Source of the DNA: Pseudoflavitalea sp. G-6-1-2
GTDB taxonomy: Bacteria > Bacteroidota > Bacteroidia > Chitinophagales > Chitinophagaceae
NCBI RefSeq assembly: GCF_012927185.1
Contig: NZ_JABBGB010000002.1
Coordinates: forward strand, 744,001-808,000
Length of the DNA: 64,000 nt
Direction of reading: 5' to 3'
Part shown: in pieces, positions 55,668 to 59,453 of the stretch
Layout of the letters: every line of letters begins with the position of its first letter
Numbering within the stretch: the stretch's first letter is position 1
Program-made: the position numbers and the translations under genes
Notes under the pieces: model-generated
Told to the model about the DNA's origin: nothing
The model's database searches: none
What the model saw: only the letters and a program-made list of their open reading frames with translations

Positions 55668-56043
55668 TGGGTTTTCTGAATTTGCGTTCAAAGTTAATCG
55701 GTTCTTTCCCAGCTGCCGGAAGAGATTTGTGAAATGTCAATCGCTGATCATACAGGGCTGGCTGTCAGGCATCAAGTTACCGGATTTCTTTATTGAGCGT
55801 TTAATGCCGCCCATTTTTTTATGCAGAAATATTAGTACCTTTTTCCTGTAATTGTACGAGGCAATTCTCCGCAACACCTTATCCTTAGGGCAATTCCTGA
55901 CTATGACCCGCATTTCCGTACCCTGCCCAGTGCAGGAGATGCGACATTTATTTACAAAAAGCCGAAAACTAAAGGTTAGCAATAACCGTAAATGGTTAGA
56001 TGTCAATCCGGAATCGACCGGCATCACACCACAAATCAGCGCT
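55668..56043. other. Divergent interval (376 bases) between tag and the receiver-PAS-kinase gene
   Basis: It contains the tag promoter on the left. On the right the kinase frame is open from 55852, but the first 64 codons have no receiver-domain similarity. A short inverted repeat GGTTA/TAACC occurs at 55974-55987. I see no independent gene. Confidence 0.5.
55689..55696 (-). promoter_or_regulatory. -7 promoter element of tag
   Basis: TAACTTTG on the minus strand fits TAnnTTTG exactly. Transcription would begin near 55684, 17 bases before ATG 55667. Confidence 0.5.
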
Positions 56044-57468
56044 ATGATCAATTCTACGCATCCGCTTCATATCCTCGTAATTGAAGATAGTCAGAGCGAC
56101 TTTTACCTGTTTAATGAATACCTGAGACTAACGAAGCTGCCCGTTCAGACCCTGCAACACGCCCAAAGCCTGGCCGAAGCCATTACGCTTGTGCAGGATT
56201 TTCAACCAGACCTTATTTTTCTCGATCTTACCCTTCCCGACAGTGAGGGGGCTGCCACTTTTACGCAGCTGCATCAGCAGGCTTCTCATATTTCCATTAT
56301 CGTACTCAGCGGTCTCGACGACAAACAGATTGCCCTTCAAACCATTACCGAAGGTGCACAGGATTACCTGATGAAAGGCGAGTTCGACGAGAAACTGCTC
56401 ACCAAAACCATCATGTACAGCCTTGAGCGGAAAAAAATATTGCAGCACGTGGTGGAGAACTACGAACGCTACAACACCATCATCAAAGCTACCAACGATA
56501 CCATCTGGGAATGGAACCTCAACGATCATAAGATCACCTGGAACGATGGTATCACCAATACTTTCGGTTATCCTGCCTCGAAAGTGCAACCGACAACGGC
56601 CTGGCATCACAAGAACATCCATCCGGACGACCGGGAGCGGGTGCTCACCAAAATTGCCAGCTGCCTCAGCGACGGCATCAGCCAGTGGGAAGAAGAATAC
56701 CGCTATCTCGGAGCAGACGGCAGCTACCGTTTTGTGTACGACCGTGGCTATATTCTGAAATCGGAACACAAACCCTATGGCATGATCGGCGCTATGCTCG
56801 ATATCACCGAACGCAAGAGAAAGCAGGAAGAACAGATAGAAACGCAGAAACTGATCACCCGCATCACCATTCAAACGCAGGAGCAGGAAAGAAGGGATAT
56901 AGGACTGGAGCTGCACGACAATATCAACCAGATACTCGCCACTGCCAAGCTCTGCGTGGATATGGCCATCAACGAAGAAGATATCAGCAAAGAACTGCTG
57001 TACAAAAGCTACGACAGCATTTCGAAAGCCATCAATGAGATAAGAAGTTTATCCAAGAATCTGGTACCGCCTTCACTGGGCGATATCGGGCTGAAGGAAG
57101 CCCTGCTGGAGATGATCGAGAACATGAGCGTATCGCAGGGACTGAAGATCAAGATCAGGGCAAATGATCCGCATGTGGAGAGTCTCAGCAACAACAAGAA
57201 GCTGATCATTTACCGCATTGTGCAGGAGCAGGTGAACAATATCGTAAAACATGCAAGGGCCAGCCTTGCAGAAATAGAACTGAAAACAGATCAGCAGTTC
57301 ACCCGTCTCACAATAAAAGACAATGGTATCGGATTTGATCCACGCAAAAAAGGGAAAGGCATTGGTTTACACAACATCATGAGCCGTGTTGAGATGCAGA
57401 ACGGCGAAATGGAGATCATCAGCGCTCCCGGTGAGGGATGTACGCTGAAGATTGTGATGCCGCTCTGA
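56044..57468 (+). CDS. Receiver-PAS-histidine kinase hybrid (HisKA_3/NarL-type kinase)
   Basis: 474 residues from ATG 56044 (MINSTHPLHILVIEDSQSDF). A longer frame to 55852 is open but lacks domain similarity. The N-terminal receiver (about 8-125) has the acidic pocket IEDS and phospho-acceptor D61 (FLDLTLP). A PAS domain (about 140-255) includes HPDDRERV and ends in DITERKRKQEEQ. The HisKA_3 dimerisation region has ERRDIGLELHDNINQILA with H291. The HATPase is seen in IVQEQVNNIVKHA, DNGIGFDP and GIGLHNI. It has no membrane segment, so it is cytoplasmic and can take phosphate at its own receiver. It is convergent with the following receiver gene (stops abut). Confidence 0.9.
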   Translation: MINSTHPLHILVIEDSQSDFYLFNEYLRLTKLPVQTLQHAQSLAEAITLVQDFQPDLIFLDLTLPDSEGAATFTQLHQQASHISIIVLSGLDDKQIALQTITEGAQDYLMKGEFDEKLLTKTIMYSLERKKILQHVVENYERYNTIIKATNDTIWEWNLNDHKITWNDGITNTFGYPASKVQPTTAWHHKNIHPDDRERVLTKIASCLSDGISQWEEEYRYLGADGSYRFVYDRGYILKSEHKPYGMIGAMLDITERKRKQEEQIETQKLITRITIQTQEQERRDIGLELHDNINQILATAKLCVDMAINEEDISKELLYKSYDSISKAINEIRSLSKNLVPPSLGDIGLKEALLEMIENMSVSQGLKIKIRANDPHVESLSNNKKLIIYRIVQEQVNNIVKHARASLAEIELKTDQQFTRLTIKDNGIGFDPRKKGKGIGLHNIMSRVEMQNGEMEIISAPGEGCTLKIVMPL

Positions 57469-57894
57469 TCAGAATTTCTCCGGGAAGTGCTGGTGCAGAA
57501 CATCCATCAGCATTTCCGTTGTGAGAGGTTTGTTTCTGAACTCCGCAATCAGTCCATGGTTGCGGGCTTTCACTTCATCTTCCGGATTATAAGAGGTGGT
57601 GAGCATTACCACAATTACCCTGGCTTTTTGAGCAGGTGTGAGTTTCTGGTATTCTTCCAGAAATTCCCAACCGTCCATAGCAGGCATGTTGATGTCGAGA
57701 AAGATGAGGTCGGGCGTAGAGCCTGAGCCTGCCACTTCTTCGATCTCAGTGGTAAGGTATTCAAGGGCATCGGGTGCGCTTTGTTCTACCTGAACATTTT
57801 CTGCGCACTCCGCTTCTTCGATGATCAGTTTGTTCAGAAAGTTGGTTGGTTCATCGTCGTCGATCAATAGGATGCAGTTCAATTTTCGTCTCAT
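57469..57894 (-). CDS. Single-domain response regulator (receiver only)
   Basis: 141 residues. CILLIDDDEPTNFLNKLII gives the acidic triad, D67 in DLIFLDINMPAMDGWEFL is the phospho-acceptor, VVMLTTSYNPED holds the switch Thr/Ser and EFRNKPLT the conserved Lys. The spacing resembles Rcp1-like receivers that partner with PAS/phytochrome-type kinases. No output domain is present. It begins 2 bases after the stop of the upstream membrane kinase, so the two are co-transcribed and probably form a phosphorelay pair. Confidence 0.92.
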   Translation of the reverse strand: MRRKLNCILLIDDDEPTNFLNKLIIEEAECAENVQVEQSAPDALEYLTTEIEEVAGSGSTPDLIFLDINMPAMDGWEFLEEYQKLTPAQKARVIVVMLTTSYNPEDEVKARNHGLIAEFRNKPLTTEMLMDVLHQHFPEKF

Positions 57895-57896
57895 AA

Positions 57897-59453
57897 TTAC
57901 TGTATTTCTGAAATCGTAAAGAAAAAGGTGCAGCCTTCGTTCTGTGCAGACTCTACCCAGATCTTCCCTCCGTGCAGTTCTACTATTTTTTTACAGTTCG
58001 CAAGGCCGATGCCGGTTCCTTCGTATTCGGTTCGTTTGTGCAGTCGCTGAAATAACACAAACACTTTTTCGTGATAGGCAGGATTGATGCCTATGCCATT
58101 ATCTTTGAATGAAAAGACCCAATGTCCGTTTTCTCTCAGGGCGCCTACCCTGATATCCGGACTGATGCCCGGTTTTCTGAATTTGAGTGAATTACTGATC
58201 AGGTTCTGAAAGAGCTGTTTCAATTCAACTTTGTAAGCATTCACAGTTGGCAGCGATTCGCATTGAACAGCCGCATTGTTTTCTCTGATGCTCTGATCCA
58301 GATCTCCTACCACATCCTGCAGCAGCTCGTTGCAATCTACTTCTACCAGTTCTTTCTCCCTGCCGATTCTCGAATAGTCGAGCAGGTTGGTGATCAGTAC
58401 CTTCATACGATCCGAGCTCTGATGAATGAAATCGAGGTATTGATCCGCTGTTTCATCCATCTGCCCGTGATATCTTTTCCGCAGGAGATCCACAAAAGCC
58501 GAAGTGGTTCTGAGGGGTTCCTGCAGGTCGTGCGAAGCTACGTAAGCAAATGTTTCCAGCTCACGGTTTTTTCGCTCCAGTTCTTCGGTGCGTTGCTGTA
58601 CCTTTTTTTCCAATGAGCTGTTGGCTTCCCGGATCTCTTTTTCCATTCTCTTCTTTTCCGATACATCCCGGATCGCTGCGATGAGCAGCAGGCCATCTTC
58701 TGTTTGCAATGGGCTGAGACTGATCTCGATGGGAAACTCCGGTTCCCCTGCCCGCTTGCCGAAACATTCTATTCTGTCTACCTGTGTAGTGTTTCCGTCT
58801 GTATTGGCGGCTGCACTGGTTCTGATAATTCCCAGCAGCCTGTCGAAACTGCTCAGCATCAGCTGGTCGATGCTTTTGCCGATCATGGTTTCGCGGTTCA
58901 GTCCGAACATCTTTTCGGTTTGCGCATTCACCAGCTGCACCGTTCCGTTGCCATCCATTATCACCATACAATCCGGAGCCACTTCGAGCAGGGTCCTGAA
59001 TTTATCTTCTGCTTTCTCTCTCTGCTGTATTTCCGCTTCCAGCTGCGACGATGTTCTGAGTTTGATGGCCAGCGGCATCAGCTTTATCAGATATACTACA
59101 GTGGTCCAACTGATCAATCCTGTAATGAGCCGCATCAGTGCTCCTAACCTGTATGCAGGATACCAGAAGGAGAGCGCATCGAATAAATGCGTTGCTCCAC
59201 AGGCACATATGAAACCTGCAAAAAGGAAATAGAGCCGGAAAAATCTTGCGTCGTGTCTTCTGGAAATGTAGCGTATGATGATCAGCGGAATCGCAAAATA
59301 GGCTGACCAGACCAATAAATCGCTTATGATGAAGAGCCACCCATGAAAATCGGTCCATTTTCCACAATACCAGCGGGGTGGCCAATCAGATGTATCCAGT
59401 AATTTTTCAAAGAATTCGATCACCTGGTGCATATGGGTAATGATTGTAACCAT
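57897..59453 (-). CDS. ETR1-like (ethylene-receptor-type) membrane histidine kinase with PAS domain
   Basis: 518 residues from ATG 59453. The frame opens at TTG 59462. Three membrane helices (about 38-65, 70-95, 104-130) contain IISDLLVWSAYFAIPL and FICACGATHLFDAL. The residues D45, Y52, I55, P56, I82, C85 and H89 correspond to D25, Y32, I35, P36, I62, C65 and H69 of Arabidopsis ETR1, all with a constant offset of 20. In ETR1, C65 and H69 bind the copper ion that holds ethylene. A PAS domain (about 148-270), a coiled coil, an HisKA domain with H308 (ASHDLQEPL) and an HATPase (NLISNSLKF, DNGIGINP, GTGIGLANCK) follow. The likely partner is the adjacent receiver. Confidence 0.88.
   Translation of the reverse strand: MVTIITHMHQVIEFFEKLLDTSDWPPRWYCGKWTDFHGWLFIISDLLVWSAYFAIPLIIIRYISRRHDARFFRLYFLFAGFICACGATHLFDALSFWYPAYRLGALMRLITGLISWTTVVYLIKLMPLAIKLRTSSQLEAEIQQREKAEDKFRTLLEVAPDCMVIMDGNGTVQLVNAQTEKMFGLNRETMIGKSIDQLMLSSFDRLLGIIRTSAAANTDGNTTQVDRIECFGKRAGEPEFPIEISLSPLQTEDGLLLIAAIRDVSEKKRMEKEIREANSSLEKKVQQRTEELERKNRELETFAYVASHDLQEPLRTTSAFVDLLRKRYHGQMDETADQYLDFIHQSSDRMKVLITNLLDYSRIGREKELVEVDCNELLQDVVGDLDQSIRENNAAVQCESLPTVNAYKVELKQLFQNLISNSLKFRKPGISPDIRVGALRENGHWVFSFKDNGIGINPAYHEKVFVLFQRLHKRTEYEGTGIGLANCKKIVELHGGKIWVESAQNEGCTFFFTISEIQ

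Follow-up and report, generated by a model that had tools for sequence, protein, structure and literature searches.

A Pseudoflavitalea histidine kinase with an ETR1-type membrane domain, a probable ethylene receptor

A 64,000-nucleotide stretch of the Pseudoflavitalea sp. G-6-1-2 genome (the window) codes for a sensor histidine kinase that, judged on its sequence, is probably a Cu(I)-dependent ethylene (olefin) receptor of the ETR1 type. Ethylene sensing is probable because the membrane domain is of the same family as that of ETR1 and retains the residues for copper and ethylene. The kinase shares its layout with AzoEtr1 from Azospirillum brasilense and thus belongs to an already known receptor type. 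The first-pass annotation had described a histidine kinase with a complete ETR1-type ethylene-binding signature, and both the Pfam match and the seven matched residues bear this out; to it we add the minus-strand orientation of the gene, a partner response regulator, and the change of ETR1 K91 to arginine in helix 3. We give roughly even weight to a broader proposal, that a deep Bacteroidota branch of these receptors perceives plant or soil ethylene through a module of kinase, response regulator, and REC-PAS-kinase, with arginine at the output position, and that the phylum also evolved copper-pump fusions and receptor-like proteins lacking the full copper site.

The kinase and its membrane domain

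The gene is a 518-codon frame on the minus strand (Table 1) coding for a two-component kinase, with a HisKA domain carrying an H-box, an HATPase_c domain, and an adjoining response regulator. Most relatives begin at the position of M8 when aligned, and the start may therefore lie at 59432; this alters the numbering only, and the binding residues are the same either way. All 25 NCBIfam families listed for the kinase (of 83) score under their own cut-offs, and a scan for promoters and terminators gave no signal in clear excess over shuffled sequences.

Table 1. Features of the kinase locus, and frames of related copper-ATPase fusions
Feature	Coordinates	Strand	Basis
Sensor histidine kinase gene, ETR1_N-PAS-HisKA-HATPase_c; 518 aa (511 aa if start is 59432)	57897..59453	minus	ORF and Pfam
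ETR1_N domain, residues 37-132, three hydrophobic helices	59058..59345	minus	Pfam; whole-genome match at same place
D45 (ETR1 D25)	59319..59321	minus	Alignment, pattern
C85 to H89 (ETR1 C65, H69), putative Cu(I) ligands	59187..59201	minus	Alignment, pattern; ETR1 role from PMC6586836
R108, place of ETR1 K91, helix 3, predicted D25 partner	59130..59132	minus	Alignment
PAS domain, residues about 160-266	58656..58976	minus	Pfam
HisKA dimerization and phospho-acceptor domain, residues 299-364, H308 in SHDLQEP	58362..58559	minus	Pfam, motif
HATPase_c catalytic domain, residues 409-515, N- and G-box motifs	57909..58229	minus	Pfam, motifs
Single-domain response regulator, 141 aa, probable phospho-acceptor D67 (from sequence)	57469..57894	minus	Pfam
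REC-PAS-HisKA_3-HATPase gene, convergent; start codon uncertain, REC from residue 74	55852..57468	plus	Pfam
Copper-type ATPase fused to ETR1_N, frames in related loci	L145:295-4995; L190:2439-6680; L191:71-3772; also L161, L173		

The Pfam search of the kinase matches ETR1_N (PF25487) at 101 bits (E 4.7e-29) against a cut-off of 27, which excludes chance as the source of the match, and this gene is the sole ETR1_N match in the whole genome (E 1.0e-29; 6.1 Mb, 99.95% complete). Placement in an unrelated family by a profile search had been named beforehand as a possible refutation; the domain falls in PF25487. Residues D45, Y52, I55, P56, I82, C85, and H89 align without gaps with the seven ETR1 residues D25, Y32, I35, P36, I62, C65, and H69, and the constant offset of 20 from ETR1 claimed earlier holds (13 if the start is 59432). 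The pattern D-x6-Y-x2-I-P-x25-I-x2-C-x3-H begins at kinase residue 45, its single occurrence in the six frames of the window, and at residue 25 of ETR1. These seven ETR1 residues are a requirement for ethylene binding (PMC11819568; PMC6586836), C65 and H69 are those that hold Cu(I) (PMC6586836), and K91 has a predicted bond to D25 and a role in output (PMC11819568). The basic partner of D25 on helix 3 is present here as R108, with the same charge but a different residue (K91 in ETR1, K98 in AzoEtr1).

Three transmembrane helices are predicted, from hydropathy and from a moderate-confidence model. The whole protein has exactly three hydropathy peaks (19-residue windows from 42, 76, and 105), and AlphaFold2, run with 14 sequences, places long helices at residues 35-64, 71-95, and 99-135 after an N-terminal helix (2-18), in a model of mediocre quality (mean pLDDT 74.7, pTM 0.53). 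The domain has no sequence match in the PDB at E <= 1; a search by fold gives 20 matches at E <= 10 and none at E <= 0.001.

Gene neighborhood and distribution

A gap of 2 bases separates the kinase stop codon from the response regulator gene that follows it, an operon-like pairing, and since the regulator lacks an output domain, it presumably acts by protein contact. The convergent REC-PAS-kinase beyond it could, speculatively, be a further phospho-target. The arrangement is conserved among the closest 15 loci (the window, five others of the genus, and nine of Niastella, Paraflavitalea, and kin), which together with L126 form one group in a quick tree of 112 rows (SH-aLRT 86). A regulator homolog lies downstream of the kinase in all 15 loci, window included, with 54-83% identity in the 14 nonwindow loci and at a distance of 133-641 bases in four Niastella loci (L052, L054, L055, and L056). 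The convergent gene follows the regulator in 13 of the 15, again counting the window (66-87% identity); the two loci without it are L005, whose contig stops 342 bases past the kinase, and L054, whose contig stops 1424 bases past it. Among five further loci compared at E <= 1e-20 (L060, L118, L119, L126, and L134), L060 alone has a regulator match and L118 alone a weak match to the convergent gene, and a same-strand receiver frame, recognized with a looser receiver profile, adjoins the kinase in all five.

The first 37600 positions of the window code for polysaccharide functions (SusD, GH106, two GH28, GH5, two chondroitinase-B-like, and three CBM96), of which the GH106, GH28, GH5, CBM96, and SusD genes make it likely that pectin and further plant polymers are degraded; the earlier remark that the organism carries pectin-degrading genes is thus confirmed by two GH28, GH106, and GH5. 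No copper gene was found in the 10 neighbors scanned or in the 18 larger window frames. The genome has no ACC deaminase match over the curated cut-off, and hence gave no further indication of ethylene biology; one weak match under the cut-off was rejected, and 6 of 14 control genomes give such matches too. Four copper ATPases in the genome exceed the cut-off, a count that is uninformative because 13 of the 14 control genomes pass it as well.

Counting ETR1_N matches at E <= 0.001, all six genomes of the genus carry an ETR1_N kinase, and the domain is present in 51/294 genomes of the family Chitinophagaceae (49 over the cut-off) and in 21/395 of a draw from the phylum. Draws from Cyanobacteriota and Planctomycetota gave 32/98 (31 over the cut-off) and 9/99, the class of genome G470 gave 11/391 (9 over the cut-off), and the 14 control genomes gave none. 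The closest named relatives are in Pseudoflavitalea rhizosphaerae (L053), a Pseudobacter metagenome-assembled genome (L059), and Niastella, Pseudoflavitalea and Pseudobacter both being Chitinophagaceae genera. A domain-only query found 18 plasmid records with the domain, A. brasilense Sp7 among them; a whole-protein plasmid query was dropped, its 3973 records being swamped by generic kinases.

Variation among relatives of the domain

We surveyed residues in 111 distinct fetched domains plus ETR1, 112 rows in all, drawn from 173 frames with a match in a six-frame profile search. Duplicates and partial domains were dropped, the latter including L160, L169, L037/L146, and the broken L080, and over-cut-off places in family genomes G266, G202, G249, and G147:C29 lie outside the survey. 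All seven residues are identical to those of ETR1 in 82/111 domains, spread over Bacteroidota, Planctomycetota, Cyanobacteriota, and Pseudomonadota. The full set is kept in 6/6 domains of the genus, 24/43 of other Chitinophagaceae, 17/23 of other Bacteroidota, 10/10 of Planctomycetota, 5/6 of Pseudomonadota (from 6 of the 18 plasmid records), and 20/23 of Cyanobacteriota, a figure that leans to good matches, the rows being the best place of the best 20 of 32 genomes. C85 and H89 are invariant in 14/14 aligned rows, the window included.

The N-terminal motif is of two main types. RWxCG is found in the genus (6/6), other Chitinophagaceae (35/43), other Bacteroidota (8/23), Planctomycetota (7/10), and one cyanobacterial contig; PHGxC is found in Cyanobacteriota (22/23), Pseudomonadota (6/6), other Bacteroidota (12/23), and Planctomycetota (1/10). 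The cyanobacterial contig (L064, Brasilonema bromeliae, cov_3.12) has the lone RWxCG domain among the cyanobacterial loci fetched and groups with a planctomycete (96, quick tree), and we therefore regard it as contamination or transfer. We also note L122 (genome G220), where ETR1_N is on a 232-aa frame in which no other Pfam domains were found.

The ETR1 K91 position is arginine in 6/6 domains of the genus. Over the 112 domains, residues 25 and 91 are acid and basic in 96, acid and other in 4, other and basic in 3, and other and other in 9, with D/K, D/R, N/L, N/D, and S/D among the combinations seen. This covariation has a Fisher p of 2.6e-8 with kinship ignored, and a kinship-aware test of pairs, with 3 one way, 0 the other, and 3 showing no difference, is not significant (p 0.25). 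It is thus suggestive only that the two residues vary together, with the charge pair seemingly exchanged or lost as a whole, a pattern that the pairing predicted for ETR1 (PMC11819568) would lead one to expect.

A careful tree of 84 rows, for which 28 rows had been removed manually (near-duplicates and long branches among them), has a branch with 100/97 support that separates the RWxCG Bacteroidota, including the window, from ETR1, AzoEtr1 (L065), other Pseudomonadota, Cyanobacteriota, Planctomycetota, and the PHGxC Bacteroidota. The tree rests on a short domain, and ETR1 sits at the end of a long branch. The kinase's domain is therefore not on the side of the experimentally tested receptors ETR1 and AzoEtr1 in this tree, SynEtr1 being outside the set. 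When all 112 rows are included in the quick tree, the RWxCG planctomycetes and L064 join the window's side (96) with ETR1 and AzoEtr1 still apart, and both branchings are compatible with one unrooted order. The literature searched, which was mostly without subscription papers, yielded no experiments on proteins from the window's side of the tree, and Bacteroidota homologs may have been mentioned in print earlier.

Two kinds of relative depart from the usual layout. Five Bacteroidota genomes of three families (f35, f56, and f31) carry a copper-type P-type ATPase fused to ETR1_N. Three of them come from the 80 genomes of f35, and the other two (G964 and G1167) from the class of G470, where 9 genomes exceed the cut-off. 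The NCBIfam copper-translocating ATPase family TIGR01511 scores 512-568 bits in L145, L161, L190, and L191 (cut-off 397), and the fifth, L173, at a contig end, has CPC, DKTGT, and C-G-x-x-H motifs in one frame. By Pfam, L145 and L190 have HMA, ATPase, ETR1_N, PAS, HisKA, and HATPase domains; L161 is near-identical to L145 and also matches a histidine kinase, and L191 has HMA, ATPase, and ETR1_N with a PAS match under the cut-off only. In all five, C65/H69 are conserved and the 25/91 pair is N25/D91, which puts the acid on helix 3, and the ATPase fusion with the ligands kept links the domain to copper. Titles and abstract openings of the literature searched contain no such fusion.

The second kind lacks the full copper site. 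C65 or H69 is replaced in 11/111 fetched domains, 10 of them in Chitinophagaceae, and the fold thus serves also without a full copper site. Eight of these Chitinophagaceae domains (L129, L132, L135-L138, L140, and L141) form a clade (SH-aLRT 98, quick tree) in which H69 is Y or F in 8/8 and C65 is S or T in 4/8. Their frames are short (343-365 aa), and L129, L136, and L141 have ETR1_N and HisKA over the Pfam cut-offs and no HATPase found. Frames downstream of the eight have no match to the window's kinase, a query that would miss distant kinase types. From their sequences, the eight resemble receptors that lack both a full copper site and an ATPase domain.

Proposed function and comparison with known receptors

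In the mechanism we propose, C85 and H89 of helix 2 would hold Cu(I) in the membrane, and the copper would bind ethylene. D45 of helix 1 would position H89 and pair with R108 of helix 3, which may relay this change onward to the PAS domain and the kinase; H308 would then be autophosphorylated and donate its phosphate to the regulator at D67. By analogy with Azospirillum, the physiological role is perhaps in attachment or growth near plants.

Other functions can be imagined for such a domain. It is unlikely that the kinase is a copper(I) sensor, with C85 and H89 reporting membrane or periplasmic Cu(I) and ethylene an incidental ligand: the copper-type ATPase fusions in five Bacteroidota genomes of three families, in which the Cu(I) ligands are kept, favor this reading, but the fused domains sit across from the window's group (L145 in both trees, L161 in the quick tree) and have N25/D91 rather than D25/R91, the neighbors and window frames scanned contain no copper gene, and Y52, I55, P56, and I82, which ETR1 needs for ethylene besides the ligands, are retained as well. 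Cu(I) centers bind several pi-acceptor ligands, and a different small pi-acid (another alkene, CO, or an isocyanide from soil microbes) acting through the same copper site would be consistent with the separate grouping of the domain, its RWxCG in place of PHGxC, its R108, and a relative in Pleomorphovibrio with the species name marinus (L061), though that one has N25/L91; identity with ETR1 at seven positions argues against this, and we consider it quite unlikely. Least credible is that the domain is kept merely as a membrane anchor while the PAS domain reads the ligand, which would fit the persistence of ten Chitinophagaceae domains that lack C65 or H69, but is at odds with seven residues invariant throughout the genus (6/6) and with C85 and H89 present in all 14 aligned rows, the window included.

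If the kinase is an ethylene receptor and does bind ethylene, hormone sensing of this kind would be shown for a phylum found near plant roots, and in an organism that also has genes for pectin degradation; structural and mechanistic work could then turn to a second deep branch of these receptors. Were the broader proposal true, one phylum would offer natural tests of how copper is supplied to receptors and of how D25-K91 couples binding to output. With the copper-ATPase fusions, the loading of copper, a step that PMC6656775 describes as largely unknown, would become testable in one polypeptide.

The first-pass annotation had placed ethylene receptors in plants and Synechocystis. Both placements stand, but the limit to these two does not, since AzoEtr1 of A. 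brasilense was shown in 2025 to bind 14C-ethylene, and Rhizophagus irregularis is also named for ethylene receptors (PMC11819568). AzoEtr1 (strain Sp7) shares with the Pseudoflavitalea kinase the ETR1_N-PAS-HisKA-HATPase order at a similar length (525 aa versus 518 aa), the seven binding residues, and a single-domain response regulator gene just downstream, although the AzoEtr1 kinase and regulator genes overlap (PMC11819568) and here there is a 2-base gap. The two proteins are 25% identical over 512 columns (E 8e-40). AzoEtr1, however, has PHGxC and lysine at ETR1 position 91, where the kinase here has RWxCG and arginine, and lies on the opposite side of the domain tree.

Arabidopsis ETR1 has in common with the kinase the three-helix domain with D25, Y32, I35, P36, I62, C65, and H69. 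It differs in having GAF in place of PAS, a receiver domain of its own, and N-terminal C4/C6 disulfides (PMC6586836), and in having K91 where the kinase has R108, with three residues fewer here between the H69 and K91 positions. Synechocystis SynEtr1 and the cyanobacterial receptors share the domain family and kinase signaling through a response regulator (PMC11819568), whereas the cyanobacterial domains compared, mostly the best per genome and excluding SynEtr1 itself, have PHGxC in 22/23 against RWxCG here.

The plant copper ATPase RAN1 is an interaction partner of ETR1 and is believed to supply it with copper (PMC6656775). The Bacteroidota fusions are, by analogy, an echo of RAN1-ETR1: a copper P-type ATPase serves the receptor in plants, and these relatives carry both in one protein, whereas the kinase here is unfused and the nearby frames scanned contain no copper ATPase gene.
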